Shown here: positions 10,403 through 28,909 of the stretch, one piece after another
Numbering within the stretch: the stretch's first letter is position 1
Layout of the letters: every line of letters starts with the position of its first letter
Virus record (IMG/VR): IMGVR_UViG_3300037558_000912
Coordinates: 1 to 29,707 of that record
Reading direction: 5' to 3' (one strand)
Length of the DNA stretch: 29,707 bases
DNA from: a virus
Notes under the pieces: generated by a model
What the model saw: the letters and a program-made list of their open reading frames with translations, nothing else
Database searches by the model: none
What the model was told of the DNA's origin: nothing
Made by a program: the position numbers and the translations under genes

Positions 10403-10839
10403 TACAAATTAGTTTTTGTTAATGCACCTGAACCTTGGAATGTGACAGAAGCCTCAACCATGCCGTCGTGATTGGCAGTGATTGAATGACCTGTGATTAT
10501 CACAGTTCCTGCTAGTTTGATACCTGTTGTCTCACCAGATGGATACAATTCAATTAATGAAGTTGTAGCACCTGAGTTGACGGCATCAAACAAGTTGATG
10601 TTTCCTGAACCTGCGGCTGTATCATCTCTAAAAAAGATGTCCATGCTTCCAGAAAATTGTCTTAAACCTGGGATATAAGTTCTCGCCCCACTTCCCATCA
10701 CTGTAGATTCAATGGCGTCAAGTTCTTGATCGATCGTGAAAGATCTAACTGATGCCACACCTACTACAGAAGATGAAGAGTTGTCCGTAAACTTTATAAC
10801 GCCTGATTCACCTGTGTAGGTTGTTTCGTTAGTCGCCAT
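10402..10839 (-). CDS. major tail tube protein (145 aa)
   Basis: The protein is beta-rich: SGVIKFTDNSSSSVVGVASV, then RSFTIDQELDAIESTVMGSG, then RQFSGSMDIFFRDDTAAGSG, with a C-terminal HDGMVEASVTFQGSGALT. The IxxELDxIExTxMGSG...RQFSGSM pattern is typical of phage tail tube proteins with a lambda gpV-like fold, which stack as hexameric rings around the tape measure. Length fits the short tail tube group, with no C-terminal Ig domain. It lies between a short hypothetical gene and the gp10-like gene. It overlaps the preceding gene by 11 bases. Confidence 0.88.
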   Translation of the reverse strand: MATNETTYTGESGVIKFTDNSSSSVVGVASVRSFTIDQELDAIESTVMGSGARTYIPGLRQFSGSMDIFFRDDTAAGSGNINLFDAVNSGATTSLIELYPSGETTGIKLAGTVIITGHSITANHDGMVEASVTFQGSGALTKTNL

Positions 10840-11047
10840 TGTTTATCTCCTCAATGTGTTGATCCTTGACCTCTAAAGGATCGGCTTTTATTACTTCAAC
10901 ATCCTTGACCTTGAGTTTGTATTTTCTCTTTGGTTTCGGTGTTGATGTGTCAGATGGTTCAAAGGTCCAACCATCATCCAAATGTGCCTTGGCATCCATG
11001 CCCCGCACCATCTTGAATTTCTCTTCTTTATACATTTTTACAGACAT
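10829..11047 (-). CDS. small hypothetical protein in the tail module (72 aa)
   Basis: This is a short, charged protein: MSVKMYKEEKFKMVRGMDAK, a GWTFEPSDTSTPKPKRKYK stretch and an acidic C-terminus, KDQHIEEINNGD. It looks like a disordered linker with basic and acidic ends rather than a globular domain. It is flanked by the tail terminator gene (TAATG at 11047) and the tail tube gene (11-base overlap), so it is almost certainly translated with them. It may be a small tail-tube accessory protein; no family was recognised. Confidence 0.7.
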   Translation of the reverse strand: MSVKMYKEEKFKMVRGMDAKAHLDDGWTFEPSDTSTPKPKRKYKLKVKDVEVIKADPLEVKDQHIEEINNGD

Positions 11048-11484
11048 TATAAAACTCCTTTTTTATATGTGTAGATTACATTCACAGTGACAATCACTTC
11101 ACCCAACGGTAGTTCTCTGTCAATGACTTCAATGTTTGAAATTGTTGTTTTGACATTGTGGATGTTTGCCTGTGCCAATGTAATATCTCTGTCTCTTGAT
11201 TTTTCTAAGGTTTCGGAAATGCCTTCTATGACTTCATTCCTCAATGAGTCGATCTGTGTGCCTCTGACATAACATCTACATTGTATTGATAGATTGCCCT
11301 GTCTTAGGTCTGTTGCCAGGTCTTCCCTGTCTTCGTTCTGTGTCACAACCAGTATCGCAGGAAATTGTGTGATGGCAAGTTTCTGCACATCAAACTTGTC
11401 TCTGGACACATGGGCCACAGAAGGATCTGTCATGTTCTCCAGTTGATCAACTATGTTCTTTGTGATGTTTTCTCTTGCTGACAT
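11047..11484 (-). CDS. tail terminator protein, gpU-like (145 aa)
   Basis: The protein follows the usual alpha/beta pattern: helix MSARENITKNIVDQLEN, strand AITQFPAILVVTQNEDRE, strand GNLSIQCRCYVRG, a helix (SLRNEVIEGISETLEK) and C-terminal strands ELPLGEVIVTVNVIYTYKKG. That matches phage tail terminators (lambda gpU type), which cap the head-proximal end of the tail tube and connect it to the head. Position between the connector gene and the tube gene supports this. It is TAATG-coupled on both sides. Confidence 0.75.
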   Translation of the reverse strand: MSARENITKNIVDQLENMTDPSVAHVSRDKFDVQKLAITQFPAILVVTQNEDREDLATDLRQGNLSIQCRCYVRGTQIDSLRNEVIEGISETLEKSRDRDITLAQANIHNVKTTISNIEVIDRELPLGEVIVTVNVIYTYKKGVL

Positions 11485-11933
11485 TATCTAATTAAACGCC
11501 CCATATGAAATGATTGTTTTTCAGCATCCGTGAATGTTCCTGAACTGTCAAGATCGTAATGGACGCCGTCTCTTAAAATAAGATCAAATTCTTCTTCAAA
11601 TCTTGACTTGTAGTAATTCATCTTATTTGTGAAAGCATCACCATCAGGATCAAAAGTAGATAGTCTCGGATAGATGTAATATGCCAACACATGATACACG
11701 GCCGCTCTCACGAACTGATTAGCATTTAACTTGCTGTTTGTAAGTTTGTGATTACCGCCAACGGCACTGATGTCGTTGGTTCCGTATTGTTGTGTGGGCC
11801 ACCATTTTATATTGAGTAGTCTAATTATGTCGTCGAATGTCTTTTCGTGTAGGTCTGAAAAGTCCTGTATTCCGTATTTGTGAATATCAGGTTCATATTC
11901 TTTGATGTTGTTGTCTGTTGCGAATGTCGCCAT
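11484..11933 (-). CDS. head-tail connector / adaptor protein (149 aa)
   Basis: The sequence is helical: MATFATDNNIKEYEPDIHKY, then SDLHEKTFDDIIRLLNIKWW, LNANQFVRAAVYHVLAYYIY, and MNYYKSRFEEEFDLIL near the end. The order of helices, with AAVYHVLAYYIYPRL central and YKSRFEEEFDLIL following, is that of phage head completion adaptors (HK97 gp6/SPP1 gp15 type), which form a ring below the portal. It is the first tail-side gene after the head block. AAGGA lies upstream of the ATG at 11933. Confidence 0.7.
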   Translation of the reverse strand: MATFATDNNIKEYEPDIHKYGIQDFSDLHEKTFDDIIRLLNIKWWPTQQYGTNDISAVGGNHKLTNSKLNANQFVRAAVYHVLAYYIYPRLSTFDPDGDAFTNKMNYYKSRFEEEFDLILRDGVHYDLDSSGTFTDAEKQSFHMGRLIR

Positions 11934-11952
11934 CTTAAAGTCCTTCTTTAAT

Positions 11953-11985
11953 GTATTACTATCAAGTCCTGCTTGATGTTATTAT
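11953..11985. other. gap hairpin after the glycosyltransferase-like gene
   Basis: ATCAAG (11961-11966) and CTTGAT (11972-11977 on the plus strand read GCTTGAT) form a 6-base stem with a 5-base loop. No U run follows on the minus strand. An AATAAATA box (11983-11990) overlaps the stop codon of the preceding gene and may be a promoter element for the connector and tail genes. Confidence 0.35.
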
Positions 11986-12525
11986 TTATTGTAGTTTTTC
12001 TAAGAATTGTTTTATTGTTATAACAGGTATCGTGACATCAGGCTTACCATCGTTTACAACGAATATGTTGTTGTCTGTGTTGTTCATGTAGTATAGATGC
12101 TTGATGCAATGATTGGTGTGTTTCAATGGTTTGGCCTTGCCGCGTATATCACCATAATCATAAACCGTGTGATTGGTTATGCCCCAATCACAGCCTAGCA
12201 CATAGATGTTTTCATTTTTGCGATCTGTTAGGTTGTGTGCCAATTGTATTGCCAGTATTCCTGAATTTTGTGCGTCAACCTTGAAGTTGCTCTGTATTGG
12301 TTCGACACGGTTCCATTTGTTTGGCTTGGCGTAGTAGTTCCTGGTCCAATATTTCACGTCAGGTTGCTGTTCTAACCTTTTCATCATTGGTTGATCGAAG
12401 CAACACACATGATCCACCTGCCTGTCGTTGAGGATGTAATTGCAACCTACCTCGATGTTCTGTCTTGGTAATGTTTTTATTGTTGTTTGTCTTGATGGGC
12501 CGTTGAGCCAAACTATTGTTGCCAT
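11986..12525 (-). CDS. DUF115/GT42-like putative glycosyltransferase (179 aa)
   Basis: The N-terminus has strand IVWLNGPS with N8-G9-P10-S11, resembling the nucleotide-binding G/NGPS loop of GT42 sialyltransferases and DUF115/MptE-like proteins. Later come NSGILAIQLA (87-96) and IYVLGCDWG (107-115), the same order as the SG-AIALGxxxIYLxGxDF segment of that superfamily. A metal or catalytic histidine pair (TNHTVYDYG, HTNHC) follows. At 179 residues it is shorter than most characterised members. It lies alone between the capsid gene terminator and the connector gene, lacks a Shine-Dalgarno sequence, and could modify capsid or cell surface glycans. The superfamily match is from recognised motifs only; function is inferred. 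Confidence 0.5.
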   Translation of the reverse strand: MATIVWLNGPSRQTTIKTLPRQNIEVGCNYILNDRQVDHVCCFDQPMMKRLEQQPDVKYWTRNYYAKPNKWNRVEPIQSNFKVDAQNSGILAIQLAHNLTDRKNENIYVLGCDWGITNHTVYDYGDIRGKAKPLKHTNHCIKHLYYMNNTDNNIFVVNDGKPDVTIPVITIKQFLEKLQ

Positions 12526-12541
12526 ACTGTTATTTAAAGAT

Positions 12542-12575
12542 AAAAAAAAGGCCCCATATTCCTACAGGGCCTTTT
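12542..12575 (-). terminator. Rho-independent terminator after the major capsid gene
   Basis: On the minus strand AAAAGGCCC (12567-12575) pairs with GGGCCTTTT (12546-12554) around a 12-base loop. Eight T residues follow on the minus strand (12542-12549, partly within the stem). It lies 28 bases after the capsid stop codon and fits a terminator that sets capsid mRNA level. Confidence 0.88.
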
Positions 12576-12602
12576 AACATATGAGCGAGGATTATCTCCT
12601 TA

Positions 12603-13463
12603 CTATGATATAGTCGCGTCCGTTGGCACTTTGATACCGTATGTGTCATGTAATTCACTCACGCCATATGTGGCAGTGCAAATTACCTCAGTCGCTCTGG
12701 CACTTTCGTCCCGTTGAGTTCTGATTTGGATATCATTACCGATTGCTAAACCTAAGGCGTCTCTTGCGAATACACCGTTCACGCAAGATGTAGCCGAGTC
12801 AGCCACAACATTTGAAGATTCAAAGATATCGATACCTGCGATTCTTCCCACATAACCTTCAGTCATTGCTTCGTTTACAACGCCTGTGTTTCCTTGTGGA
12901 ACGAATGTAGATGTCATTACTTTCTTCATGTTGAAGATTGACGCCGGGTTGAACACACCGAAGTATGGTCCTGGCACGCCTGCATTTTTAAGTTTTGCCG
13001 CCGCCGCAAATAAGTGAGCCGCTGTCATCTCTGATTGAGTGTCAGTTGCTGAACCTAGTGCGAAAGTTGAGAAGCCTGAGAATAGAGCAGTTAAGTCCTG
13101 GTCCATTTTCTTAGCAACAGCCTCACCGAACAATTTACCTAAATCAGCGATCACATTTGAACTTGAAAAGTTAAGAGACAAGTCCGAAACATTTGTTCCG
13201 ATACCTGCTTCTGCTAATGTGATATCTTTTTTAGAAGTAGAAATTGCACCTAGTGTGATGTCGTCTGCTTCTGTTAATGCCGCCGCTGTTTGCGCCGGGT
13301 AGATTGGAACCTGTAAAACTTTTCCTGCGTTTCTTGGCACAGTGAAGTTTTTTACAAGGTTTCTCATTACTGATCTTTCTGATGCAACGAACATCGCCTC
13401 TTGGACGATGGGTGCTAAAAGATCATCTAATGTTGAAGTTAATGATTTGATTTCTCCAGCCAT
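12603..13463 (-). CDS. major capsid protein, HK97 fold (286 aa)
   Basis: The sequence has the expected parts of an HK97-fold capsid subunit. An N-terminal helix (SLTSTLDDLLAPIVQEAMFV) is followed by the E-loop region (VLQVPIYPAQTAAALTEADD, then the ITLGAISTSKKDITLAEAG strand). The A- and P-domains come next (a long helix around SSNVIADLGKLFGEAVAKKM, then AAHLFAAAAKLKNAGVPGPY) and the C-terminal strands end GVSELHDTYGIKVPTDA. There is no N-terminal delta domain and no protease in the operon, so the scaffold is probably separate and the shell is not proteolysed, as in P22-like systems. A strong AGGAG precedes the ATG, and a terminator follows the stop. Confidence 0.88.
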   Translation of the reverse strand: MAGEIKSLTSTLDDLLAPIVQEAMFVASERSVMRNLVKNFTVPRNAGKVLQVPIYPAQTAAALTEADDITLGAISTSKKDITLAEAGIGTNVSDLSLNFSSSNVIADLGKLFGEAVAKKMDQDLTALFSGFSTFALGSATDTQSEMTAAHLFAAAAKLKNAGVPGPYFGVFNPASIFNMKKVMTSTFVPQGNTGVVNEAMTEGYVGRIAGIDIFESSNVVADSATSCVNGVFARDALGLAIGNDIQIRTQRDESARATEVICTATYGVSELHDTYGIKVPTDATIS

Positions 13464-14807: not shown

Positions 14808-15272
14808 CTACTTGTAGATGAAAGGATCTCTCTTCCTTAATTTTTCTATTTGATTGTAGTATTTGTTGTCCCACCAACTCAGTTCGTTGTCATCTATGTT
14901 CTTGAATCCGTTGTTCCTGTCCATGAACTTGTAATCTAGTTTTTCTATGTCAAACTGTGCCAACCACATGAATATGTTCTTGATGGCGAATGGTTTACAC
15001 GAATACACATCCAGTTGTATCAAGCCTGTCTTCCAACTGTGGAATGTGATTGAACTTGTATCAATTATGGCCACCGAACTGTATCCTTCATTGCCTTCTT
15101 TGTCTGACCATTCAGTGTGTGGTCCTGAAAGGATGTTCATGTCAATTTTTTTGATCAGACTTTTCATCTCATCATCTAGTTTCTGTCTGTCCTTGAACAG
15201 AGGTGGAGCATTGACTTCCGCTCTTACTATCAGGTGTTTGTGATCTAGTGTTGGTGTCATTGGGCTATCCAT
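14808..15272 (-). CDS. speD: S-adenosylmethionine decarboxylase-like proenzyme (154 aa)
   Basis: The core aligns with SpeD enzymes. DTSSITFHSW (71-80) matches the cleavage segment xESHISIHTW, placing the pyruvoyl-forming serine at S73, and H78 matches the catalytic His. LDVYSCK (87-93) matches the LDVFTCG strand with the catalytic Cys at C92. The conserved Glu before the serine is Thr72, and the loop between is one residue shorter. SpeD enzymes self-cleave and decarboxylate S-adenosylmethionine, giving the aminopropyl donor for spermidine. Polyamine supply for DNA packaging is a plausible phage role. Start: ATG 15272 has AGGA five bases upstream; ATG 15260 overlaps the previous stop (ATGA) and is an alternative. 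Confidence 0.8.
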   Translation of the reverse strand: MDSPMTPTLDHKHLIVRAEVNAPPLFKDRQKLDDEMKSLIKKIDMNILSGPHTEWSDKEGNEGYSSVAIIDTSSITFHSWKTGLIQLDVYSCKPFAIKNIFMWLAQFDIEKLDYKFMDRNNGFKNIDDNELSWWDNKYYNQIEKLRKRDPFIYK

Positions 15273-18956: not shown

Positions 18957-19300
18957 TATAGATGTTTGTCCGTTATTGCAATTCTAAATCTCCTGACGTC
19001 AGTGTCACCGTTTGATGTCACTATGGTCACGTCAACATTGTAGATGTTGTCGGCACTGCCTCCGTTGAGTCTAATGTTCACAAGTGCGTTTGCTACTACA
19101 ACATCAGTTGATGGATTTGTTGGTAAGGCCAATGGTGATGAATCACCTGATATGGTCTCTATGGCAACAGACGCCGATGATATGGCATCACCCGTGGTTA
19201 GGTAATCCGTAAAATCAACACCATACTTGATGTTGGCACCTGCGGCCTTTTCTATATATAGGCCGGTGTTATCTTTTTTGAATCCTGTTAAGTTAGCCAT
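18956..19300 (-). CDS. fibre-tail adaptor-like protein (114 aa)
   Basis: The protein is a small beta domain: IKYGVDFTDYLTTGDAISSA, then VNIRLNGGSADNIYNVDVTI and SNGDTDVRRFRIAI. The YGxDFxDYLxxGDxIxS...LxGGxxxxxYxVxxxxxTSxG pattern is that of phage fibre-tail adaptor proteins, which attach fibres or adhesins to the virion. In this window the gene lies between the VPxETR protein and the small terminase, at the end of the fibre region. It is TAATG-coupled on both sides. Confidence 0.72.
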   Translation of the reverse strand: MANLTGFKKDNTGLYIEKAAGANIKYGVDFTDYLTTGDAISSASVAIETISGDSSPLALPTNPSTDVVVANALVNIRLNGGSADNIYNVDVTIVTSNGDTDVRRFRIAITDKHL

Positions 19301-20637
19301 TATGTTTCACTCCTTACCCTTGGAACACTTGATCTGTTTGTATAAACAGGTTTGAATATTTTCCTAATTCTTGTTTCTTGTTCAACTTGTGCCATCCTTG
19401 TCTCCTGGTTAACTTTATTTAAGCGAGTTTCTTCTGGAACCACGAACTGTCGCGTTTCTGTCGGCACTAATATTGTTCTAAGTTCTTGTGGAACGATTAT
19501 ACAGTTCCAAGGATCTGCTGGTGATATCAGTCTTCCTTCACTTAATGTGCTGTATAGAGCAAATAATTCAGTTGGTTGTAGTTGTGCCGTGAAGTTTGCG
19601 TTTGTGCTTTGGCTGAACGCGGCCGTTATGCCTTGACCATATGCAAGGTCAAAGGTCACACTACCTACACCGCTGACAGTGGCCACTGCCACAGGATTGC
19701 CACTGCCTGATGCTCTGAAATATATTCCGTTTGTAGAAGAACTGAATGTGCCCATTGGCATCTGGAATGGATTGCCGCCTGATGAAACACCTCTGAACCT
19801 CTTGCCATCTGTTGATTGTGTTGCCGATGCCGTGACTTCTTTGGTTGGACCAAATGTCGCATTGCCATTGACACTTGATGAAGTTGTTGCTGTTGGACTC
19901 GCTGAATAACTTCTAATCCTGTTCATGGTGACATCTGGCACTGTGGCTGATGCGGCCATACTGCCTGATGCGAATGCCCTGTATCCACCTAATGCTTTTA
20001 GGACACTTGCGGCCCCTACCAACACTATTCTCTTCTCACCACCCCAACTGTCACCGAACCAGTCTGTCCATGCCCTGTCTATGACATCGCTTTCTTTGAA
20101 GTCTGCCCAGGTGTATTCAGATGTCCTTGGTGTGATGCTGGTGCCTGCCTCGATCAACTTACCTGCTAGTTGGATCTGTGTAATGAATGCGTTGAGTGTC
20201 AGGCTTTCACTGAATGCTTGGTATATGGCGTTTGTGCTGTTTGTGAAATTGCTGACTGCTGACAACGACCCTGTGAATGTTGCCACCGCGTTCTGTGTGG
20301 TCGTGGCTGATGCACTTGGATTGGTCTGTCCTGTTCTGATCCTGCCACCAAATGCTGACACAGAACTAGATGATGTAATTGTGGCGGAACCAAAGTCGAA
20401 CTTGACTCCAGCCGCTGATACCGTGAATGAACTTGTTAGTATTGCACTATTGACTTCTGTTGATCCTTCGCAAGATACACTGAAACTGCTCGTGAGTGTC
20501 TGTGCCTCGAAGGTGTAATTTAAGGCAGAGTAATCGTGCTCGACGAATTCGCCTGAACTTATCTGATAGTATGTTTCCGGAGTTGCATAGCCGCCTATGA
20601 CGAAGGCTTCTAAATCAACTAGACCTTTTATAGCCAT
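19300..20637 (-). CDS. virion structural protein with C-terminal VPxETR repeats (445 aa)
   Basis: The N-terminal half is rich in Ser, Thr and Ala with repeating beta-strand units such as LTSSFSVS, LTSSFTVSAAG and ITSSSSVSAFG. A central aromatic part (TWADFKESDVIDRAWTDWFG) is followed by VLVGAASVLKALGGYRAFAS. The C-terminus has five 9-residue units of form V-x-x-E-x-R-x-x-x (382-426): VPQELRTIL, VPTETRQFV, VPEETRLNK, VNQETRMAQ, VEQETRIRK. Similar VPxETR tails occur in marine phage structural proteins of unknown function. It probably forms a fibre shaft or decoration, with the tail as an attachment segment. GGGGGAG precedes the ATG. No enzymatic motif is seen. Confidence 0.7.
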   Translation of the reverse strand: MAIKGLVDLEAFVIGGYATPETYYQISSGEFVEHDYSALNYTFEAQTLTSSFSVSCEGSTEVNSAILTSSFTVSAAGVKFDFGSATITSSSSVSAFGGRIRTGQTNPSASATTTQNAVATFTGSLSAVSNFTNSTNAIYQAFSESLTLNAFITQIQLAGKLIEAGTSITPRTSEYTWADFKESDVIDRAWTDWFGDSWGGEKRIVLVGAASVLKALGGYRAFASGSMAASATVPDVTMNRIRSYSASPTATTSSSVNGNATFGPTKEVTASATQSTDGKRFRGVSSGGNPFQMPMGTFSSSTNGIYFRASGSGNPVAVATVSGVGSVTFDLAYGQGITAAFSQSTNANFTAQLQPTELFALYSTLSEGRLISPADPWNCIIVPQELRTILVPTETRQFVVPEETRLNKVNQETRMAQVEQETRIRKIFKPVYTNRSSVPRVRSET

Positions 20638-20655
20638 GAGGCTACTCCCCCTTTA

Positions 20656-21144
20656 TTATGCTAAGGAGATCGTCAAGTTTCCTGTTGATACTTGGAAAGT
20701 GTCTCCATTCAAGATCTCTTTGGCATTGTCAAGTTGTCCATAGAACAATACATTACCTAAAGATTCTGAAGAAGCGTCTGCTGTGTAATCCACATCCATG
20801 ACTGCGATACAAGTCACCGTTGATCCAGAACTTGCTGAATTTTGATAGTTTGCTGTCGCTGTTGTGAATGTTGCGTTTCCTGTTGTAGATATGCTACCAC
20901 CAGAAGCGTCTGTTCCGAAAGTCAATTGCTCTCTGGAATAACCTGCGTTGTTGATCTCATAGTGACCCCAGTTGCCTGTGCCTGACTTGGATTTTGTTCC
21001 TGCTTCAAGAGCCGCCAACACATCACTCGCCGTTCCACTGAATAGAGCAAGAAATACATTACCAGGATTTGCGTAGTCCGAAGACCCGCCTCTTAAAACA
21101 TGATCTAATAACTTATTTTCCAAGAAATTGGAAGATGCTGACAT
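20656..21144 (-). CDS. Gp80-like phage structural protein (162 aa)
   Basis: The start MSASSNFLENKLLDHVLRGG followed by YANPGNVFLALFSGTASDV is the well-known pattern FLENxLLxHVLRG...PxxVxLALF of Gp80-like phage proteins (mycobacteriophage Gp80 family). The rest is a beta-rich Ser/Thr domain with YSREQLTFG, then ESLGNVLFYGQLDNAKEILN, GDTFQVSTGNLTISLA. Those proteins are found near the tail fibre and packaging genes and are thought to be virion components, but their exact role is unknown. Strong AGGAG precedes the ATG. Confidence 0.75.
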   Translation of the reverse strand: MSASSNFLENKLLDHVLRGGSSDYANPGNVFLALFSGTASDVLAALEAGTKSKSGTGNWGHYEINNAGYSREQLTFGTDASGGSISTTGNATFTTATANYQNSASSGSTVTCIAVMDVDYTADASSESLGNVLFYGQLDNAKEILNGDTFQVSTGNLTISLA

Positions 21145-21217
21145 AATTGTTTTCTCCTTGTTTTTGTAATTTGTTATTACCTAAATATTTATTACAATAT
21201 CACTGCTAACCGTAAAT

Positions 21218-21988
21218 CTAACTCTGAAACAATTCAATCACCACATCACCATTATGTCCTGATCCACTGTTATCTATCTCATATGATAGAACCAGACCTT
21301 TGGCAGTGAAACCTGTTCCCCCGGCGGCAGTATCATTGTCGCCCGAGGCAACCACGAAATTCTGTGATAGTGTCAATGTGTCATTGTCCATTGCCTTATC
21401 TGCGCCTGTGCCGCTATCCACCGTGCTGAACTGGAAGATATGTTGAAAAGGTGCACTGTTGCTGGCCATCACATCAGACGATCTGTCGTGATTGGTCAAT
21501 TGAAAGAATTGTGAATTGGTCTGGAATGCAGTGGCACCTGAGGCATTAGCAACCCTGTCATATCTGAACTGGATGAATGGAGTTTGCGAAACAACATTGA
21601 CTGGATCGCTATCTGCATTGGTGGTTGAAAGTTTGGGTGCGAAAACCTGGAATGGATATGATGCTGATGGATGTGCTCCACCTGACAATGTGTTGAGCAG
21701 TGTCTTCCTTAATCTGATGGTGTAGGACCTGCCCTCAGTCAGAGGAACAACGATTGCGTTGTTGGCGCCACCTGTCATGCCACCTTCAAGGTCAGCGGTG
21801 CCACCGTTAAGTGCGGTGTAGGTGCCGTTGCCTTTGACTGTGTTGCCGGCTGTGTCTCCCGATACCGAGGCCGATGTGAAAAATTTGGGTTGGCTTGAAC
21901 CAACACCCTGTGGTGAATTAAATGTGATTGTGGTGACCTCCGGATTGAATGTCCTACCTGTGAAGAACCTCCTGCTACCGAAAGGCAT
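21218..21988 (-). CDS. MPFG-type adhesin-like protein, third cassette (256 aa)
   Basis: It starts MPFGSRRFFTGRTFNPEVTT. The first residues are a variant of MPLG, the start of the adhesin genes at 22837 and 25211. The body is beta-rich with many Ser, Thr and Asn, including IRLRKTLLNTLSGGAHPSAS and LVLSYEIDNSGSGHNGDVVI, which ends in ELFQS. It may be a jelly-roll-like ligand-binding domain, but no family is certain. The ATG overlaps the stop of the preceding fibre (TAATG), and AAGGG within the last codons of that fibre is its ribosome binding site, so the two are coupled. Role as an interchangeable tip on the shared fibre domain is inferred. Confidence 0.65.
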   Translation of the reverse strand: MPFGSRRFFTGRTFNPEVTTITFNSPQGVGSSQPKFFTSASVSGDTAGNTVKGNGTYTALNGGTADLEGGMTGGANNAIVVPLTEGRSYTIRLRKTLLNTLSGGAHPSASYPFQVFAPKLSTTNADSDPVNVVSQTPFIQFRYDRVANASGATAFQTNSQFFQLTNHDRSSDVMASNSAPFQHIFQFSTVDSGTGADKAMDNDTLTLSQNFVVASGDNDTAAGGTGFTAKGLVLSYEIDNSGSGHNGDVVIELFQS

Positions 21989-22542
21989 TATCTTATCCCT
22001 TGTGTGATAGAACCTATGTAGTCTGTGCCATCAAAGAACACTGATACGATGTCTATCTGTGATGATGATGTTGTCAGTGTTGGCGCACCGTTTGAGAATT
22101 TGACCAATGTGGATCCATCCGATGTGAATGTTGCTGTCTTGTCAGAGGCATTGACTTTGATTATCAACAGTGTTGACGTGCCTGCTGTCATGTTGGTGAA
22201 TGTGTATGTGGTGCTGTCGTTCAGTGTCATTGTATGCACTGGTGCCGCCGTGGCATCAACATTGACACTACCTGAAGTGGCAGATATCGCGTTGATGGTC
22301 TCCTTTGGAGTCTGGACCAGTTTTGTGAATTTTGTGTTTGAAGTGTTCTTCTCGAATTTGGCGTTTGAACTGTTGTAGACGAATATGTCTCCATCCGCTG
22401 GTGAACCACCATCGAAGAAATCAATGATGTCATTGACATTGGAGATGTTCTTGTTTATTTCCGGTCTCGCCAGTCTCGGTTTGTCCGTGTCACTGTCTGT
22501 GTGTGCTGTGGATCCTTTGTTGCCGCTTGGCCAAGTTGTCAT
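21988..22542 (-). CDS. short tail fibre with shared C-terminal domain, third cassette (184 aa)
   Basis: Residues 1-50 contain MTTWPSGNKGSTAHTDSDTD then KPRLARPEINKN, similar to the start of the fibre at 2212-2646. Residues about 95-184 are the same domain that closes the fibres at 23576 and 26122: VNVDATAAPVHTMTLNDSTT, then TLLIIKVNASDKTATFTSDG, ending SVFFDGTDYIGSITQGIR. The other two end NDGTSLLGN. It lacks the long shaft region of the other two. It is followed at once by its MPFG partner. Confidence 0.78.
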   Translation of the reverse strand: MTTWPSGNKGSTAHTDSDTDKPRLARPEINKNISNVNDIIDFFDGGSPADGDIFVYNSSNAKFEKNTSNTKFTKLVQTPKETINAISATSGSVNVDATAAPVHTMTLNDSTTYTFTNMTAGTSTLLIIKVNASDKTATFTSDGSTLVKFSNGAPTLTTSSSQIDIVSVFFDGTDYIGSITQGIR

Positions 22543-22569
22543 TTGTTATACTCCGTTCCTTGTTCCTAT

Positions 22570-22833
22570 TTAATCGCCCAGTTTGCCTTCGACATCTGCT
22601 TTTAGGTCCGCGTTCAATGTCAGATGACATTGTAGATCAGATATCAACCAATTCAGGAAGTCTGTGTTGGTGTCCGTTGTGGCGGCATCTATCTGTGCGT
22701 CAGTGTATGTCTCAGGACAACCTTTGAAATAGTTCCTGGCGAATGTCTGTGCGTCTGTGAAATTGTTGACCTGGTTCTTCCAGATCAAATATTTGCAAGT
22801 GTAAAGGTCGATGTCTTGTATGTTTTCTAGCAT
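22570..22833 (-). CDS. small helical protein in the fibre region (87 aa)
   Basis: The protein starts MLENIQDIDLYTCKYLIWKN and continues helical (FTDAQTFARNYFKGC, then TDFLNWLISDLQCHLTLNAD), with a charged end, KADVEGKLGD. GGAG lies eight bases before the ATG. It sits between the second and third fibre cassettes, four bases after the LamG-like gene. Its size and helical nature would fit a fibre assembly chaperone or a linker, but no family was recognised. Confidence 0.6.
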   Translation of the reverse strand: MLENIQDIDLYTCKYLIWKNQVNNFTDAQTFARNYFKGCPETYTDAQIDAATTDTNTDFLNWLISDLQCHLTLNADLKADVEGKLGD

Positions 22834-22836
22834 ATT

Positions 22837-23562
22837 CTATACTCCATAATTTCCCGTGAATGTTGCGTCATTGGTTAGGTCTGAATCAAAGTGCGTCAGG
22901 TTAAGTGTGTTGGAATCATCACTCAGTGCCGATGATGGTGGCGTATAACCGCTGGAGCCGTATCTGGCTATCTTGCTCATCCTGAAGGCATCTATCTGTC
23001 CCACGAAGTCATCACCGTAGTTGTCCATCACGCCTACTGTGAAGTTGACGCCTGACGCAGGTGCGTTTAAACCACCTGATATTCCTATCGTGTTTTGCAA
23101 GGTGCCATCTAGATGGATATAGACATTTGATCCGTCGTATGAGGCACTTATGTAATGGAATGTGTTTTGACTAATGTTGTTGCTTCCTTGTTGGCTTTGG
23201 CCTGACCCGCTACCGTTGGTGTGGTTGAAAAAATATTTATTGCCCGATCTTACACCCAAAGACCAACTCCTGTCTGCTGTGGGACCTGTCCAGTGTCCTG
23301 CCATGTGTGCATAGTTAGAGGCGCTGGTTTGCCTAAACCAGAATTCACAGGTCCATGGATTGGTGCCTGCCAACCTGACCCTGTCGTAGTCTAGTTCCAG
23401 ACCTTGGTTTGAACCATTGAAGTTGAATGAGCCTGCGCCAATCTTCTTGTTTGTTGTGTCGTTTGTTGGACTTGATCCGCCATTGATTGTGACGAAATCT
23501 ATTGTGCTGGCCGAGGCCACTTTTGTTTGTCCAAAAACTGCTTTTCCTAGACCTAATGGCAT
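22837..23562 (-). CDS. MPLG adhesin with LamG/concanavalin-like domain, second cassette (241 aa)
   Basis: It starts MPLGLGKAVFGQTKVASAST. From about residue 45 the protein reads as a LamG-type lectin fold: GSFNFNGSNQGLELDYDRVR, then WTCEFWFRQTSASNYAHMAG, then HYISASYDGSNVYIHLDGTL and IDAFRMSKIARYGSSGYTPP. The F-x-G-x-W-T-x-E-F-W-F and Y-DG-x-x-Y-x-D-G order is that of laminin G-like domains, which bind sugars or proteins. It follows the second long fibre by 13 bases with AGGAG upstream. It probably binds host surface glycans at the fibre tip; that is inference. Confidence 0.82.
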   Translation of the reverse strand: MPLGLGKAVFGQTKVASASTIDFVTINGGSSPTNDTTNKKIGAGSFNFNGSNQGLELDYDRVRLAGTNPWTCEFWFRQTSASNYAHMAGHWTGPTADRSWSLGVRSGNKYFFNHTNGSGSGQSQQGSNNISQNTFHYISASYDGSNVYIHLDGTLQNTIGISGGLNAPASGVNFTVGVMDNYGDDFVGQIDAFRMSKIARYGSSGYTPPSSALSDDSNTLNLTHFDSDLTNDATFTGNYGV

Positions 23563-23575
23563 CTATGCTCTCCTG

Positions 23576-25144
23576 TTATGCGTATGCTTTGGCACAATTA
23601 CCCAATAAACTGGTTCCGTCGTTGTAGATGGTGACCACGTCAATGGCACTGGCCGCTGTTGTGAGTGCTGTGTATCCTCCGGCGAATTTGACTGCGGTTG
23701 AGTCTGAACCTGTGAATGTGGCTGTCCTCGAACCTGTGCCATCCTGCCTGATTATCAGTGTCACTGTTTGACCTGTGCCTAAATCATTGATTGTGAATCC
23801 TGTGCTGTGTGCCAGTGTCACTGTGTGGACTGGTGCTAGGGAACATTCTACCGCTATCGTGGCGCTTGAAGTCAATGCGTTTTGTTTCTCTCTGTATTTG
23901 AATAGTGTTCCCACATTTGATTGTGCCGTGTCTGTGTCCGTGTCAATTAAAAATTTGTTTGTGGCCGACCCTGCTTGGTATCTATATGCAATTTCATTTG
24001 TGGTGTTCTCTGTGCCTGCTCCGTCGTGTGACGTGCCTTTGAAGTTATAACCAACTGCGTTTGTGACGTTGATGGTTTGTCCCGATCCGGCTTCGACGAA
24101 GTGTCTTGCTTCAACTCCAAGTAAATCAGTGACGTCCAATTGTGATTGGTTTCCAAAAATATATCCATTGAAGAAACCTGCCGTGGCATACTGCAACTTA
24201 CCTGCGTTGCTTGAGCCTGCAGTGTTGGTTATGTCCATTTCGCCAACCAAGCCTGCGAACACATCTGGTCTTGAGTTGTTTATTATGGCACCATTGGTGT
24301 CAACGTTCAAGATGTTGTATGAGTTCCGCCACCTGTTGTGGCTCTGTGAACTGTCTGTGCCGTTGGACTTGACCTGTGTTATTGTTGCGTTTGTGTATTT
24401 TCTCTCTGCACTTGAATCCTGTGCGTTGAAGTCAAACTCAGATCCCTGATCATACATCCTAATAACACCGTTCTGCCATCTTGCGTTTGAGTTGTATGCT
24501 GTGATGTCAGCATTACCTAGTTGGATGTAGCCTGTGCCGTTTGGTTCTATGCAAAGTTTGTCGTTTGATCTTGTTGTCTTGATTACATTGTCATCTATAG
24601 ATATCGCGTCATTGGCTATTGAAGTTGTTGCCGTGATGGCGCCCGTCACTGCAAGTGTAGAACCATCAAATGTTAAGTTGGCTTCACCATTAAGTGCATC
24701 TGTGCCTGTGGCCGTGACCACTCTGTTGTTTGAACCATTTGTTAAAAAGTCTGATACGTCTACTGATACAGCATCTGCCGCCACATCAATACCTGTGCCT
24801 GCTATAACATTGAGTGTGACATCTCCTGTTGTGCCTCCACCCGTCATACCTGCACCTGCCACCACTGATGTGATGTCTCCGCTGGCTGAACTATTGATGG
24901 TCACCGTGCCATCTGAATTTGTTGAAGTGGTTATTCCTGTTCCACCCTGTATGTATAATGAGTCACCAGCCTTGATGTCAATGGTTGCAGAGTCGTCTGC
25001 CACTACACCAATTGATTGATCTCTTAGATTGATTAAGTTTGAATCCAGTTCCGCGTGTGTGAGTGCCGCGTCCTTGGCTATGTTGTCTGATGTGACTGAA
25101 CTTGAAGTTGCTGTCCTTGTGACTAGTTTTGCTTTTGAAGCCAT
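23576..25144 (-). CDS. long tail fibre, second cassette (522 aa)
   Basis: The first 65 residues (MASKAKLVTRTATSSSVTSD, then HAELDSNLINLRDQSIGV) are homologous to the start of the fibre at 26122. After DSATIDIKAGDSLYIQG comes a Gly-Ser-Thr-rich shaft with GAGMTGGGTTGDVTLNVIAG and repeats around VSVDVSDFLTNGSNNRVVTA. The shaft then differs from that of the first fibre. The last 90 residues (SSATIAVECSLAPVHTVTLA ... TIYNDGTSLLGNCAKAYA) are the shared C-terminal domain. The 5' gap carries an AATAAATA box at 25168-25175 and AGGAG. It is coupled to the LamG-like partner 13 bases downstream. Confidence 0.82.
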   Translation of the reverse strand: MASKAKLVTRTATSSSVTSDNIAKDAALTHAELDSNLINLRDQSIGVVADDSATIDIKAGDSLYIQGGTGITTSTNSDGTVTINSSASGDITSVVAGAGMTGGGTTGDVTLNVIAGTGIDVAADAVSVDVSDFLTNGSNNRVVTATGTDALNGEANLTFDGSTLAVTGAITATTSIANDAISIDDNVIKTTRSNDKLCIEPNGTGYIQLGNADITAYNSNARWQNGVIRMYDQGSEFDFNAQDSSAERKYTNATITQVKSNGTDSSQSHNRWRNSYNILNVDTNGAIINNSRPDVFAGLVGEMDITNTAGSSNAGKLQYATAGFFNGYIFGNQSQLDVTDLLGVEARHFVEAGSGQTINVTNAVGYNFKGTSHDGAGTENTTNEIAYRYQAGSATNKFLIDTDTDTAQSNVGTLFKYREKQNALTSSATIAVECSLAPVHTVTLAHSTGFTINDLGTGQTVTLIIRQDGTGSRTATFTGSDSTAVKFAGGYTALTTAASAIDVVTIYNDGTSLLGNCAKAYA

Positions 25145-25210
25145 TTTTAGTATCTCCTAATAAAGATTATTTATTGTTTTATATTCGCCATAAAATATGC
25201 CGTCATTGAT
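25145..25210 (-). promoter_or_regulatory. gap with AATAAATA box, possible phage late promoter
   Basis: This gap between the first adhesin and the second fibre contains AATAAATA (25168-25175) on the minus strand, 23 bases before ATG 25144. It differs from the T4 late promoter box TATAAATA at one position. No good sigma70 -35 box was found. No terminator was found. Confidence 0.3.
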
Positions 25211-26122
25211 TTACGCCGTGTAAGATCCATCACCTGTGAATTTGATCACTGTTAAATCTCCATCTGTGGTTATTGTTGGTGATCCTGTTGTTGTGTTTGT
25301 GAAATTGCTGGTTGCCAATCTTATTATAACCACACCTGATCCACCAGATGATGCTGTGCCGCTGAGTGTTCCGCCACCTCCACCTCCTGTATTGGTGCCA
25401 CCATCTTGTGCTGTGCCTGATGTTCCGAATGTTGCATCACCGCCACCACCAGATCCGCCATCACCGCCACCTGACACATAAATTGAACCACCGCCACCAC
25501 CAGCATATGTGGTGCTTGATCCTGTTATTGAATTAGATATACCACTACCACCGTCTCCGTTATTGGGTCCGGTTCCTGTTGAACCGTCCGTGCCGGCTGT
25601 GCCAGCACCACCACCTCCACCACCGTTTTGGAATGTGCTGTTGGCTGACACTTTGGCAACACCTCCGCCGTTGCCGAAGAACTTGGCCGATCCTGCCCTC
25701 GAGGCACCATTGCCACTGCCACCGCCCGTGGTAGGACCAATTTGCGGCGCTGGATTGGTTGCGTTGTTGCTGAATAGGCCTCCTCCACCACCGGGTGCCA
25801 GTAGTGTGTCGAAACTTGTGCCTGTTATAGATGAACTGCCACCGCTGTTTCCATTTGAAGGACTGGAACTGACCGCGGAGCCACCTGCTCCCACCGTGAT
25901 GGTGTATGTGGTTCCCACATCAAACTCGGGTTTTGGCACACTATCGCCGTTGTCATCCGTGGTGACTTGGAATGTGCGATAGATTCCTCCACCGCCTCCT
26001 CCGCCACCGGCGTGTCCTAGGCCTCCACCACCACCGCCACCTACTACCAAAACATCTACATCGTATTCTGTCACTGCTGTGACCGTTTGGTGTTGTGATT
26101 GCCTATGGAGTCCCAATGGCAT
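25211..26122 (-). CDS. MPLG glycine-rich adhesin, first cassette (303 aa)
   Basis: It starts MPLGLHRQSQHQTVTAVTEY, followed by VDVLVVGGGGGGGLG and long glycine runs. Motifs such as TYTITVGAGGS, LAPGGGGG and SGGSGVVIIRLAT are those of the Gly_rich_2-type domain, found in phage tail-tip adhesins that fold as polyglycine-II sandwiches (gp38 of T-even phages such as S16). The end, GDLTVIKFTGDGSYTA, is also common in this group. It is TAATG-coupled to the long fibre and uses an AAGGA site in that fibre's last codons. Variable loops between glycine helices would define host range. Confidence 0.85.
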   Translation of the reverse strand: MPLGLHRQSQHQTVTAVTEYDVDVLVVGGGGGGGLGHAGGGGGGGGIYRTFQVTTDDNGDSVPKPEFDVGTTYTITVGAGGSAVSSSPSNGNSGGSSSITGTSFDTLLAPGGGGGLFSNNATNPAPQIGPTTGGGSGNGASRAGSAKFFGNGGGVAKVSANSTFQNGGGGGGAGTAGTDGSTGTGPNNGDGGSGISNSITGSSTTYAGGGGGSIYVSGGGDGGSGGGGDATFGTSGTAQDGGTNTGGGGGGTLSGTASSGGSGVVIIRLATSNFTNTTTGSPTITTDGDLTVIKFTGDGSYTA

Positions 26123-28317
26123 TATGAATAGTCCTTGCTGATGTTTCCCAGAAGGCTGGTGCCGTCATTGAATATTGATATGATGTCTATGTCGTTGGCA
26201 CCTGTTGAAAGTGTGTGTTGATTGCTTGGGAAAAGAACATTGGTGTATGCACCTGTCCTGCCGCCTGAGCCATCCTGTCTTATTATCACTGACACACTGC
26301 CTCCGGTTGGTAGGTTGTTGAATGTGAAAGTGGCGGCGTGTGCCAGAGTCACGGTGAACACACTGGCCAATGAACAGTCAACAGCAATTGATGACGCTGA
26401 TGTCAGTGCCTGTATGTCTTCCTTGTAGTTGGTGTTGAACCTTGCTGTGCCATCTAGGTCAATATCGCCTGTGCCTGATGGAGCCAATTTTAGATCTGAG
26501 TTTGAAGCATTTGCTGATATTGTGTTGTCCAATATAGCAACACCATCTAAATTCATTGCTGTGCTACCTGTCTCGCCTGTCATTGTGCCAAATAATCTTA
26601 TTGTGCCGGATGTGCCTGGATCTAAATCTACATGACGACCATTGGCATCATTTTGTAGAGTGATCCTTGCCTGTGCGGCACCACCACCATTGGCACTTAC
26701 TTCTAGTTGATGATCGCCGTTTGATGTTATGGCTCCATATGTTGATCCGTTTCCAACTTTTACATAAGTTGGAGTTGAACCATTAACACCTAGGATGATA
26801 TTTCCAGTTCCGCTTGGATCTAAAGTTATGTTTCCTGCACCTTGCGTCTGGATCGTGATGTTGTCGCCGCTGGTGGCAGTCTTGATTATCTTGTCTGTGC
26901 CATTGCCATTGTCGCCAACGATAAGGTTGTTTAGATTACTGTGTTTGGTGTCATTCCTCAGATAGATTTCATAGTGCGTGCCTGTTGTGCTTGTGCCTGC
27001 TGTGTCGAGGTCTATGCCAGTGAAATCGTTACCTACCGTGCCGTTGGTGTATTGGATGTGTAGACCCTGCACGTCGTTGGACACCGTCTGACCGTTCTGG
27101 ACGTTTTCGTATGCGATGACGTTGGCTATGTTGGCTGTTCCGCTTCCATAACTTTGGACTGTGTTCGTGATACCTTTCATGGTAGTGGCGGACAATGTCT
27201 GACCACTGGCAGTCACTAGACTGTTTGACACACTCAAACCTCCCGTATTTGTGACGGCTATGTCACCTTTGCTGTTGCCACCCTCGTCGTCACCTACCTG
27301 TGACCATATGGCGAAACCACCATGGTTTCCAACAGTGACCGCGTGGGCAGATGAATTGGTCGTTGATATGTCACGAGTCATCCTGGCACCCCTGCTACCG
27401 CTTGTGTTGGTTGAATCTAGACCGTTGTAGTCAACTGTTAGGTTGTTGACGTGTCTGTATCTTGCGTTGCTTGATGACGTGTCACTGCCAGTAAGTTTGA
27501 AATACATTGAATCGTATTTGTATCCTCTTGTGCCGTTGGTGTGTGAGTCCGCCACACCAAATATGTTTGGAAGTCCCGCACCTCTTGACAGTGTTGTTGA
27601 CGCACTCTCAAACAGGTTACCTTGGAAATCTGCTATGCCACCACGAGGTTGTATAAAGATACCACCGGTGCCGTTGGCACTGAGTTCCATGTCTGCGTTG
27701 GATGAACCTGTTGACATTTCGTTGCCTGAGAATGCGAAGTCACCGGTGTTGGCGTTTGCCGCACCTATTGTGATGGTCTTGGTTGCTCCAGTGCCTGTTG
27801 CGGCAACACCTGCACCAACGAAGTTGATTGTGGTGGCCGCCGTTGACAGTGATGAACCTTCATCCTGCACGGTGATCGCACTGCTTGAGTTGGCATCGAC
27901 ATATGTCTTGATTGCTTTGGCCGAAGCAAGTGTGTCATCTGAACCACTGACTGAACTTATGTCTGTGTCCAACACACCTGATTTTAGATTGGCCACATCT
28001 ATGTTTGAAAGTGAGTTACCTGTGCCATCGGCATCAAATGTCTTGTTCGTGAATGTTGTGGTTGAACTGCCTGTGACGCCCGCGGCTGTGACAGTGACTG
28101 TGTTGCCTGACACTGATGCACCAGAAAATGTTATGGTCTCTCCGGCCTCTATGTCTGTTGATGTTGAACCATCTGATATGGCTATTGTTTGGTCCCTTAG
28201 ATTGATGAAATTTGAATCCGCTTCCGCGTGTGACAGTTCTGAACCTTTGTTTAGGTTGTCTGAACTTACATTCGAACTGGTTCTTTCACGGGTGGTCAGT
28301 TTGGCTTTGGCTGGCAT
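26122..28317 (-). CDS. long tail fibre, first cassette (731 aa)
   Basis: The N-terminal 65 residues (MPAKAKLTTRERTSSNVSSD, HAEADSNFINLRDQTIAISD) match the second long fibre and probably attach it to the tail. The shaft includes ITFSGASVSGNTVTVTAAGV, a KTFDADGTGNSLSNIDVANL stretch common in marine phage fibres, and repeating Gly/Asn/Thr units. The end (about 640-731) is the shared C-terminal domain: ALTSASSIAVDCSLASVFTV ... SIFNDGTSLLGNISKDYS. AGGAG lies upstream of the ATG, and a TATAAATA box is at 28336-28343. No autocatalytic chaperone motif or glycosidase was seen. Confidence 0.82.
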   Translation of the reverse strand: MPAKAKLTTRERTSSNVSSDNLNKGSELSHAEADSNFINLRDQTIAISDGSTSTDIEAGETITFSGASVSGNTVTVTAAGVTGSSTTTFTNKTFDADGTGNSLSNIDVANLKSGVLDTDISSVSGSDDTLASAKAIKTYVDANSSSAITVQDEGSSLSTAATTINFVGAGVAATGTGATKTITIGAANANTGDFAFSGNEMSTGSSNADMELSANGTGGIFIQPRGGIADFQGNLFESASTTLSRGAGLPNIFGVADSHTNGTRGYKYDSMYFKLTGSDTSSSNARYRHVNNLTVDYNGLDSTNTSGSRGARMTRDISTTNSSAHAVTVGNHGGFAIWSQVGDDEGGNSKGDIAVTNTGGLSVSNSLVTASGQTLSATTMKGITNTVQSYGSGTANIANVIAYENVQNGQTVSNDVQGLHIQYTNGTVGNDFTGIDLDTAGTSTTGTHYEIYLRNDTKHSNLNNLIVGDNGNGTDKIIKTATSGDNITIQTQGAGNITLDPSGTGNIILGVNGSTPTYVKVGNGSTYGAITSNGDHQLEVSANGGGAAQARITLQNDANGRHVDLDPGTSGTIRLFGTMTGETGSTAMNLDGVAILDNTISANASNSDLKLAPSGTGDIDLDGTARFNTNYKEDIQALTSASSIAVDCSLASVFTVTLAHAATFTFNNLPTGGSVSVIIRQDGSGGRTGAYTNVLFPSNQHTLSTGANDIDIISIFNDGTSLLGNISKDYS

Positions 28318-28370
28318 TGTTTCTCCTAATAATAATATTTATATAGGTGTCCCATCACCTAAATCCGGGC
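28318..28370 (-). promoter_or_regulatory. gap with hairpin and TATAAATA late-promoter-like box
   Basis: On the minus strand a short hairpin AGGTG/CACCT with a 6-base loop (28346-28361) is followed by TATAAATA (28336-28343), the exact T4-type late promoter box. ATG 28317 lies 18 bases further. The hairpin lacks a U run, so a terminator is not supported. Confidence 0.4.
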
Positions 28371-28565
28371 CTATAATTTTGAGTAGTATGTGATCGTCTT
28401 GTTGTTCTCGTCACAACACACGATGCCATGATCCAACGACACCCGCCAACCCTCGATGGGATGGTAGAAACTCTCCATGCTTCGATACACTATGCCGGCC
28501 TTGGCGATGAAATCCACCGGATCAGTGGAGGCGTTGGTCTCTATGCCTGCGTGTATCTGTTTCAC
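28371..28565 (-). CDS. hypothetical protein (64 aa)
   Basis: The protein begins MKQIHAGIETNASTDPVDFI and contains VYRSMESFYHPIEGWRVSLD and HGIVCCDENNKTITYYS. The end has a beta-like pattern. The start is GTG 28565 (GTGA overlap with the previous stop), supported by CGGAGGAT eight bases upstream. No family was recognised. It is the last gene of the short accessory operon before the fibre genes. Confidence 0.6.
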   Translation of the reverse strand: MKQIHAGIETNASTDPVDFIAKAGIVYRSMESFYHPIEGWRVSLDHGIVCCDENNKTITYYSKL

Positions 28566-28909
28566 TGGCTGGGATCCTCCGGATCAAACAGTGTTGAGTA
28601 ATTGTTGTTGGTGCTTTTTGGTCTGTGTTTGGCCACGGTGTCCACATATGTGGGCCTGCTGTCCGCGTTCCAGAGTCCCTTGTCCCTCTTCTTCATCCGG
28701 ACGTTGTCCAGTATGGTGTGGTTGCCACGATTGTGTGTGATGATCTCCACCATCTCTACCCAATCCTGCCAGTTGTCATTCTTGGGATCTATGAAACAGT
28801 AGCCCTTGGCCAGTCTGCCAGTCTCGTCGGTGTGGAATCCATCTATGCGGATCACCTCTCCACCGTGCCTGCTGGTGATGACTGCGATTGATTCAACGGC
28901 CACCTGCAT
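28562..28909 (-). CDS. hypothetical protein (115 aa)
   Basis: The protein is mixed alpha/beta: MQVAVESIAVITSRHGGEVI, then GFHTDETGRLAKGYCFIDPK, NDNWQDWVEMVEIITHNRGN and a polar tail. It may be a small DNA-modification or immune-evasion factor, but no motif supports this. It is TAATG-coupled to the 59-aa gene upstream (ATG 28909, stop 28909-28911), and overlaps the next gene as GTGA. Confidence 0.6.
   Translation of the reverse strand: MQVAVESIAVITSRHGGEVIRIDGFHTDETGRLAKGYCFIDPKNDNWQDWVEMVEIITHNRGNHTILDNVRMKKRDKGLWNADSRPTYVDTVAKHRPKSTNNNYSTLFDPEDPSQ

Follow-up and report, generated by a model that had tools for sequence, protein, structure and literature searches.

The window analysed here is the whole of a 29.7-kb stretch of DNA from a marine bacteriophage (IMG/VR virus record IMGVR_UViG_3300037558_000912, positions 1 to 29,707). 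The structural genes are on the minus strand and include terminase, portal, scaffold, major head protein, tape measure and a J-like tail protein. The nearest relatives of the terminase are those of Phage DSL-LC06 (52%) and of Pelagibacter phages HTVC112P, 026P, 111P and 202P (50-52%). Three pairs of genes, F3-M3, F2-M2 and F1-M1, lie upstream of the terminase in reading order. A first-pass annotation had described these as three fibres with a common C-terminal domain, each followed by a gene starting MP(L/F)G, and had proposed a set of swappable tips, each on its own carrier. The three fibre open reading frames (ORFs) and their partners are present where it placed them, all on the minus strand (Table 1). 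The fibre is called the carrier, its C-terminal domain the socket, the partner the tip, the first residues of the tip the plug and the remainder the body; these terms describe proposed roles.

Table 1. Parts of the three carrier/tip cassettes, with positions in the window.
Feature	Positions	Strand	Basis
Carrier fibre F3, 731 aa (amino acids)	26122..28317	-	ORF; C-terminal domain by hidden Markov model (HMM)
F3 C-terminal putative socket domain, residues 637-730	26128..26409	-	HMM E 7.6e-35
F3 N-terminal module, common with F2	28123..28317	-	Score 192 vs shuffled mean 50, 0/1000
Putative tip M3, 303 aa, glycine-rich adhesin-like body	25211..26122	-	PF21722 Gly_rich_2 E 5.6e-23; TAATG overlap with F3
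M3 putative plug, first 12 residues	26087..26122	-	92% identical in L083 (carrier domain there 85% identical)
Carrier fibre F2, 522 aa	23576..25144	-	ORF; domain by HMM
F2 C-terminal putative socket domain, residues 423-521	23582..23878	-	HMM E 3.7e-40
F2 N-terminal module, common with F3	24950..25144	-	Pairwise score vs shuffles
Putative tip M2, 241 aa, LamG / concanavalin-like body	22837..23562	-	PF13385 Laminin_G_3 E 9.4e-18; L118 body 81% identical
M2 putative plug, first 12 residues	23527..23562	-	Position-wise plug comparison; L118 comparison
87-aa ORF between M2 and F1	22570..22833	-	Accompanies M2 body in other contigs
Carrier fibre F1, 184 aa, different N-terminal module	21988..22542	-	ORF; domain by HMM
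F1 C-terminal putative socket domain, residues 85-181	22000..22290	-	HMM E 6.7e-36; AlphaFold2 (AF2) model; XD1-like fold
Putative tip M1, 256 aa, unassigned body	21218..21988	-	No Pfam/PHROG match; TAATG overlap with F1
M1 putative plug, first 12 residues	21953..21988	-	Position-wise plug comparison

The C-terminal domains were compared by Smith-Waterman alignment. Scores were 261 for F3/F2, 163 for F3/F1 and 190 for F2/F1 compared to shuffled means of 32-38 (standard deviation 6-7), and none of 1000 shuffles reached the score in each case. Similarity among the three was clear both pairwise and by HMM. The domain is about 95 residues long, not the 90 or so first estimated, and extends about nine residues past the motifs quoted at that time, almost to the stop codon. 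F3 and F2 were also alike at the N-terminus, as had been reported (standard deviation of the shuffled scores 7.7), while the N-terminus of F1 was unlike either, 198/1000 and 425/1000 shuffles reaching its score. A fibre-like gene of 144 aa at 2212-2646 has an F1-like N-terminus (score 67 compared to 28.6 for shuffles, 0/1000), as if a single virion-attachment module were common to its product and F1.

An MP(L/F)G gene comes immediately after each carrier. F3/M3 and F1/M1 overlap by one base in the sequence TAATG, which agrees with the coupling described for two of the three pairs. M2 is not coupled in this way and starts 13 bases past the F2 stop, preceded by AGGAG. The bodies differ as first described, M3 matching Gly_rich_2, M2 matching Laminin_G_3 and M1 matching no Pfam or PHROG family. 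The M1 body contained many predicted strands, though in a poor model. Among the loci compared, homologues of the 87-aa ORF behind M2 were found only in copies of the virus and in three contigs (L118/L218, L119/L222 and L120; L-numbers denote collected loci). It may travel with the M2-like body, being present in the contigs that hold a homologue of that body.

A profile seeded with the three window domains and run iteratively against 102 sequences, the window itself and 101 loci, gave 72 ORFs, duplicates included. A wider set, which included phage records, held 296 sequences and 296 domain ORFs in its last round, 294 of them with a complete 3' end. The loci, many of them short contigs, were gathered via the carrier domain, the terminase or M1-M3, with no more than 80 from any one scan; close searches based on M1, M3 and M2 gave only 4, 5 and 4 loci, respectively. 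The domain ended within 5 residues of the stop in 274/294 ORFs and within 20 in 293/294 (duplicates included). L104 was the sole ORF of the 294 with more than 60 residues past the domain, and a separate gene comes next. No natural carrier-tip fusion, which would have been strong support, was found. After these were collapsed by exact ends, the next gene lay at -16 to +15 nucleotides (nt) in 154 of 187 carriers; start codons were chosen by a script preferring those near the carrier stop, so close spacing is favoured in these counts. Among 80 terminase-anchored relatives a carrier was present in 21/21 with at least 5 kb of upstream sequence, in 23/25 at 4 kb and in 27/43 at 3 kb. The two 4-kb exceptions (L090 and L092) each have a tip gene of the plug type first, close to the edge of the contig. 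Outside the lineage an overlapping downstream gene was present in Caulobacter phage S2B and Curtobacterium phages Kithara and Shrew, and in Methylophilales phage MEP301 a gene of 788 aa annotated SPRY comes directly behind a short domain gene. Against Pfam the domain gave weak mixed matches, the best repeated one being PF25692 Phage_depo_C (3/14).

The start of the downstream gene was distinctive. In the first set, from which ten duplicate loci were dropped and in which some near-identical contigs remain, M[PTSA][LIVF]P?G was found at the start of 44/47 genes after a carrier compared to 10/1156 other genes, and seven of those ten were tips of this type too, at the edge of a contig or affected by a missed gene call. 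The strict form MP[LF]G was found in 20/47 and 2/1156, respectively. In the wider set 85/179 starts carried the broad pattern, and many of the others were of a similar basic-hydrophobic kind (MFGAARLNTLA, MFAARGGF, MPFASRGGF and MRPALWHRNN). MP(L/F)G genes were not commonly found away from the domain in the collected loci. Of 84 distinct genes with the strict plug pattern, 74 lay directly after a carrier, five were at a contig edge and five had no called carrier (two that look like tips and three that are unrelated); this tally is no free survey of such genes, since most of the loci had been collected by way of the domain, the terminase or M1-M3. One of the two true-looking orphans, at L226:1946-3190, is a plug-type tip (MPLGLAKWLFGG, weak Gly_rich_2) after an unrelated ORF.

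Co-variation of carrier and tip was calculated from 153 pairs chosen at a spacing of -16 to +15 nt with a tip of at least 80 aa. Carrier-domain similarity was correlated with that of tip residues 1-15 (rho 0.42; 10,755 body-unrelated comparisons, 0/500 permutations), compared to a rho of 0.15 for residues 26-40 and 0.13 for residues 46-60. The permutations leave some shared ancestry, and the main guard is provided by these within-protein control segments and the body-unrelated subset. Using one tip per body family (43 tips, bodies mutually unrelated) rho was 0.425 compared to 0.080 for the control, and using one pair per carrier cluster at 0.9 it was 0.407 compared to 0.153 (0/1000 permutations for both). 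Body-related comparisons in the 0.9 set gave 0.395 compared to 0.312. Identity by position stood out at residues 2-11, fell almost to background at about residue 12 and beyond, and rose slightly at 16. Of the whole tip, just the first 11 or so residues follow the carrier domain. Lysine or arginine was present within residues 5-9 in 129/153 tips compared to 27/153 in the control segment, and an acidic residue within residues 2-12 in 14/153 compared to 86. A mutual-information scan of carrier columns against the plug gave a small excess (0.146 compared to 0.112).

Such common first residues could also arise at the DNA level, as a recombination landing pad or a translation-initiation constraint with no protein function. 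Swap breakpoints just behind the plug, the one-base overlap in 68/153 pairs and the use of AAA for lysine at position 7 in 35/35 cases would all suit this explanation. It is nevertheless the least probable of the alternatives considered here, because synonymous codons vary while the residue type stays (proline CCA 54, CCT 33 and CCG 5; five codons for leucine; four for glycine), because the plug is enriched in basic and depleted in acidic residues, and because 70/153 pairs lack the overlap, having a 7-13-nt spacer instead, and carry the same kind of plug.

The bodies behind the plugs follow a different pattern. M2 and the L118 tip are 33% identical over residues 1-15 and 81% identical from residue 16 to the end, the switch falling at residue 15/16. 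Their carriers have domains that are 58% identical and N-terminal 100 residues that are 25% identical. The 87-aa ORF behind the M2 body is also found in L118. The first cassette of L019 is close to the window (carrier 95%, tip 99%), while in its second the first 100 carrier residues are 95% identical, the domain 72%, the plug 83% and the body 29%. L083 keeps F3-M3, with a body 83% identical, and has an F1-type carrier (domain 65%) whose partner is less close (plug 50%, body 29%); the gene between the two is a fibre-like ORF of 1011 codons in which no domain was called. L011 and L013 have identical plugs, and their bodies give no BLAST match. Forty comparisons joined carrier domains more than 0.85 similar with unrelated bodies, some with identical plugs. 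Judged by these alignments, bodies are exchanged between plugs and carriers.

The 153 tips formed 21 clusters by loose single-linkage and 56 by a strict criterion. Family scans covered 53 tips, namely 52 of the 56 strict-cluster representatives and M2. These included 14 Gly_rich_2, five Laminin_G_3 and one each of BNR, GLEYA, PA14 and fn3, plus others. L223, L214, L006 and L133 are outside the 53 and were compared to Pfam only, L214 matching Gly_rich_2 and the other three giving no match. The majority of body representatives had no Pfam family at E 0.001 indicating surface binding. Gly_rich_2, Laminin_G_3 and similar families are expected of surface binders, and by family matches the bodies include lectin- and adhesin-like families.

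A second alternative is that the downstream genes encode not adhesins but chaperones of tail-fibre assembly or transient caps (compare Pam3 gp25, T4 gp38 and Alteromonas V22 gp27). Genes for chaperones often lie immediately behind the fibre gene, and gp25 of Pam3 embraces the distal part of its fibre (PMC9608196, PMC10579305). M3 gave a weak match to phrog_863 'tail fiber assembly' (E 0.0017), 2/53 tips matched this family (best E 1.2e-08), and HTVC202P has a gene that is not adhesin-like at the tip position. The bodies are however highly diverse and include the 14 Gly_rich_2 and five LamG matches, M1 and M2 match no chaperone family model, and M3 matches Gly_rich_2 far better. A chaperone would also be expected to follow the carrier beyond the first 11 or so residues. 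A chaperone role is considered unlikely.

The AF2 model of F1 had a mean predicted local distance difference test (pLDDT) score of 76 (24 sequences) and was best in the C-terminal half, with block means of 70-89 over residues 81-184. It matched 218 proteins in BFVD at E ≤ 0.001; in the best 50 of these the named ones were phage proteins, several of them tail fibre, and many were uncharacterised. VIA-align returned eleven entries with Z from 7.6 to 9.8, after which the next was 4.2. These were nine phage fibre, spike or baseplate chains together with StcE and CpaA. Z was 9.8 for the Pa223 spike, 9.0 for a Klebsiella phage KP1 baseplate chain, 9.0 for CBA120 TSP4 residues 79-179, 8.8 for a tailspike depolymerase, 7.7 for T4 gp9 and 7.6 for each of T4 gp10, StcE (4dny) and CpaA (6o38), with the caution that a Z below 8 may reflect a common arrangement. 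Searched by sequence against the PDB, the domain gave no phage match and two weak fibronectin rows only. The carrier domain is predicted to have the XD1 fold of T4 gp9 and gp10 and CBA120 TSP4. In the relevant passages of PMC8825819, XD1 of TSP4 is shared by gp9, gp10, CpaA and StcE and is trimeric in the known cases. TSP4, gp9 and gp10 have XD1 inside the chain, as a spacer. The carriers have their domain at the very C-terminus, and no sequence relation to TSP4, gp9 or gp10 was detected. As almost nothing follows the domain in these carriers, its distal face would be free.

The fold also bears on a third alternative, in which the C-terminal domain itself binds the receptor and the downstream genes encode independent virion proteins kept near by operon structure. 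The StcE and CpaA domains matched above have the XD1 fold and bind glycans, and some carriers have no tip. Such a role for the domain is distinctly improbable, more so than that of a chaperone, because the domain and the plug co-vary even across unrelated bodies and because of the close spacing of the next gene in 154/187 carriers.

The chaperone, independent-protein and DNA-level explanations are all less likely than one in which the socket at the end of each fibre grips, through a short basic plug at the N-terminus, an adhesin made from a gene of its own. This plug-socket arrangement is probable on the sequence comparisons and the predicted fold. Each cassette would encode a two-protein fibre. 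The carrier would be anchored to the virion by its N-terminal module and would end in a trimeric beta-sandwich of the T4 gp9/gp10 XD1 fold, serving as the socket. The adhesin, from a gene directly downstream and often overlapping by one base, would dock in the distal face of the socket by its first 10-12 or so residues, which are basic and hydrophobic with few acidic residues (MPLGFAKSIL, MPFGSRRFFTG), and the rest of it would bind the cell surface. Bodies would be swapped by recombination just behind the plug, with plug and socket co-varying, and a phage could carry several plug-socket pairs. Each tip in the window has its own plug and lies beside its own carrier, which suggests that one particle would bear all three tips, mounted on separate carriers. 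The broad or switchable host range that the first-pass annotation also proposed would be a more speculative consequence. The tip-on-carrier model of the first-pass annotation therefore receives indirect support from co-variation, body swaps and the predicted fold, and its interpretation as a whole is partly supported. A broader proposal is made more tentatively, with slightly less than even confidence: that this is a widespread and hitherto unrecognised format, in which an XD1-fold trimer at the fibre end takes adhesins of many unrelated folds via a basic peptide of about ten residues, with several mutually specific pairs per virion.

Several observations, besides the single lysine codon, the low Z-scores and the glycan-binding XD1 domains already mentioned, weigh against this interpretation. 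When one pair per carrier cluster at 0.7 was used the contrast shrank to a rho of 0.270 compared to 0.177 for the control (0/1000 permutations), and in the body-related comparisons of that set (n = 87) its direction was reversed (plug 0.097, control 0.164). Near-identical carriers can have unlike plugs, as in L165 (MHRIIRGRKQ) and L145/L160 (MRPALWHRNN). The literal MP(L/F)G start is a minority outside the nearest lineage (55/179 in the whole set). Among the 187 carriers, 13 were followed by another carrier without an adjacent tip. A further 12 had the next gene more than 15 nt away, in eight cases at 106-112 nt, where it was a fibre-like gene of the MxWxxxxN type encoding 141-144 aa. The remaining eight had no following ORF, four of these at a contig end. 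Phages Jinkies and f2b1 have no adjacent partner for the carrier, and the domain gene of HTVC202P is followed by an unlike protein (MYAIVEDNN) with no Pfam match. The AF2 model of M1 was unusable (pLDDT 49). Foldseek with the F1 model gave no PDB match at E ≤ 0.001, the best being the Pa223 capsid spike at 3.6e-3. In passages of PMC8825819, XD1 of TSP4 and gp10 is a spacer rather than a docking face, with linkers that would keep a partner off the threefold axis.

Where two carriers adjoin and no tip separates them, their sockets were predicted to be more alike. Mean socket identity was 0.62 (n = 13) compared to 0.44 (n = 15; Mann-Whitney p 0.019), with overlap (four of the 13 at 0.30-0.44 and one of the 15 at 0.80), and the result is suggestive only. 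L239 and L246 each have three tandem carriers with a tip only after the last (MPLGSKRF and MFLGSRKF, respectively) and none behind the first two. No inverted repeats of at least 18 nt were found in 20600-28600, and tip switching is therefore not supported. No recombinase or reverse transcriptase was identified among 39 distinct window proteins searched against Pfam, PHROGs or both, a subset of the ORFs of a record that may be a fragment. Within these scans the locus is unlike switchable tail-fibre loci of the inverting or diversity-generating retroelement kind.

The system was compared to known separately encoded adhesins. The gp38 gene lies directly after gp37, and as in the T2/S16 gp37-gp38 system the adhesin here is separately encoded by a gene directly downstream of the fibre gene. 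In passages of PMC6851490 and PMC12892980, the S16 adhesin is glycine-rich and gp38 of T2 and S16 caps the distal fibre end, docking by its N-terminal part. M3 matches Gly_rich_2 but has no sequence match to an S16 gp38 chain at E ≤ 0.1; M1 and M2 are unmatched to it. The attachment domain of gp38 is alpha-helical with three tryptophans (PMC6851490). In contrast, M1 and M3 have no tryptophan, M2 has it only at 70, 75, 91 and 100 in the LamG part, and the glycine-rich match of M3 begins at residue 11. The system would work in the same way as these known ones, yet lacks the gp38 attachment-domain feature and was therefore not filed as gp38. Unlike gp38, the bodies are of many families and there are several carrier/tip pairs per genome. 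A separate receptor binder at the end of a trimeric spike is established for T5 (pb5) and modelled or proposed for Dhillonvirus and relatives in passages of PMC12309495. The carrier there is the central spike, and those passages mention no common plug across unrelated bodies.

Phage DSL-LC06 (OR003941) is similar to the window in having, at the same place upstream of the terminase, a carrier with the same domain (9053-9892) followed by a gene starting MPLGATRLNF (9903-10667; Laminin_G_3 E 1.1e-11). Unlike the window it has one pair, not three, and its third gene (10679-11242) has an F1-type start without the domain. All three genes are annotated hypothetical, and no paper was found in the literature under that phage name. 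Separately encoded tips are already known from T2/S16 gp38 and T5 pb5. An arrangement of plugs and sockets with several such pairs in one genome appears to be a new version of these. No description of the carrier-domain/plug-gene pairing was noticed in a literature search, a weak negative drawn mostly from open-access titles, abstracts and passages.

Other genes lie around the cassettes. They are directly followed by another gene of fibre type (20656-21144), which matches PF23140 (Podophage GP4 fiber I protein gp80, E 1.5e-20) and which, like the 87-aa ORF, had gone unmentioned in the first-pass annotation although it lies in the range described there. In DSL-LC06 (11327-11755) and L118 (5681-6199) this place is taken by genes that start similarly. 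The ORF at 19300-20637 encodes a 445-aa protein with no family match and a run of ETR repeats at the C-terminus, and the end of the DSL-LC06 protein at 11778-13124 is similar to it. An S-adenosylmethionine decarboxylase gene (14808-15272; PF02675, E 1.1e-10) is among the head genes. Two adjacent acetyltransferase-like genes are in the tail operon (5662-6117 and 6107-6586; phrog_1249 E 1.8e-32, and Acetyltransf_1 E 0.0021, below its cut-off). An acyl- or acetyltransferase is annotated in the tail region of related phages too.

In uncultured marine phages the fast divergence of their bodies makes receptor-binding proteins difficult to recognise. If the plug-socket arrangement is true, the carrier-domain profile and the next gene would point to the adhesin in such genomes, as in the 153 pairs here, and would do so across carriers and bodies without other similarity. 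It would show phage exchange of tips between unlike fibres and would offer a concrete, testable interface. Exchange of tips on fibre ends may be how such viruses change their attachment target.

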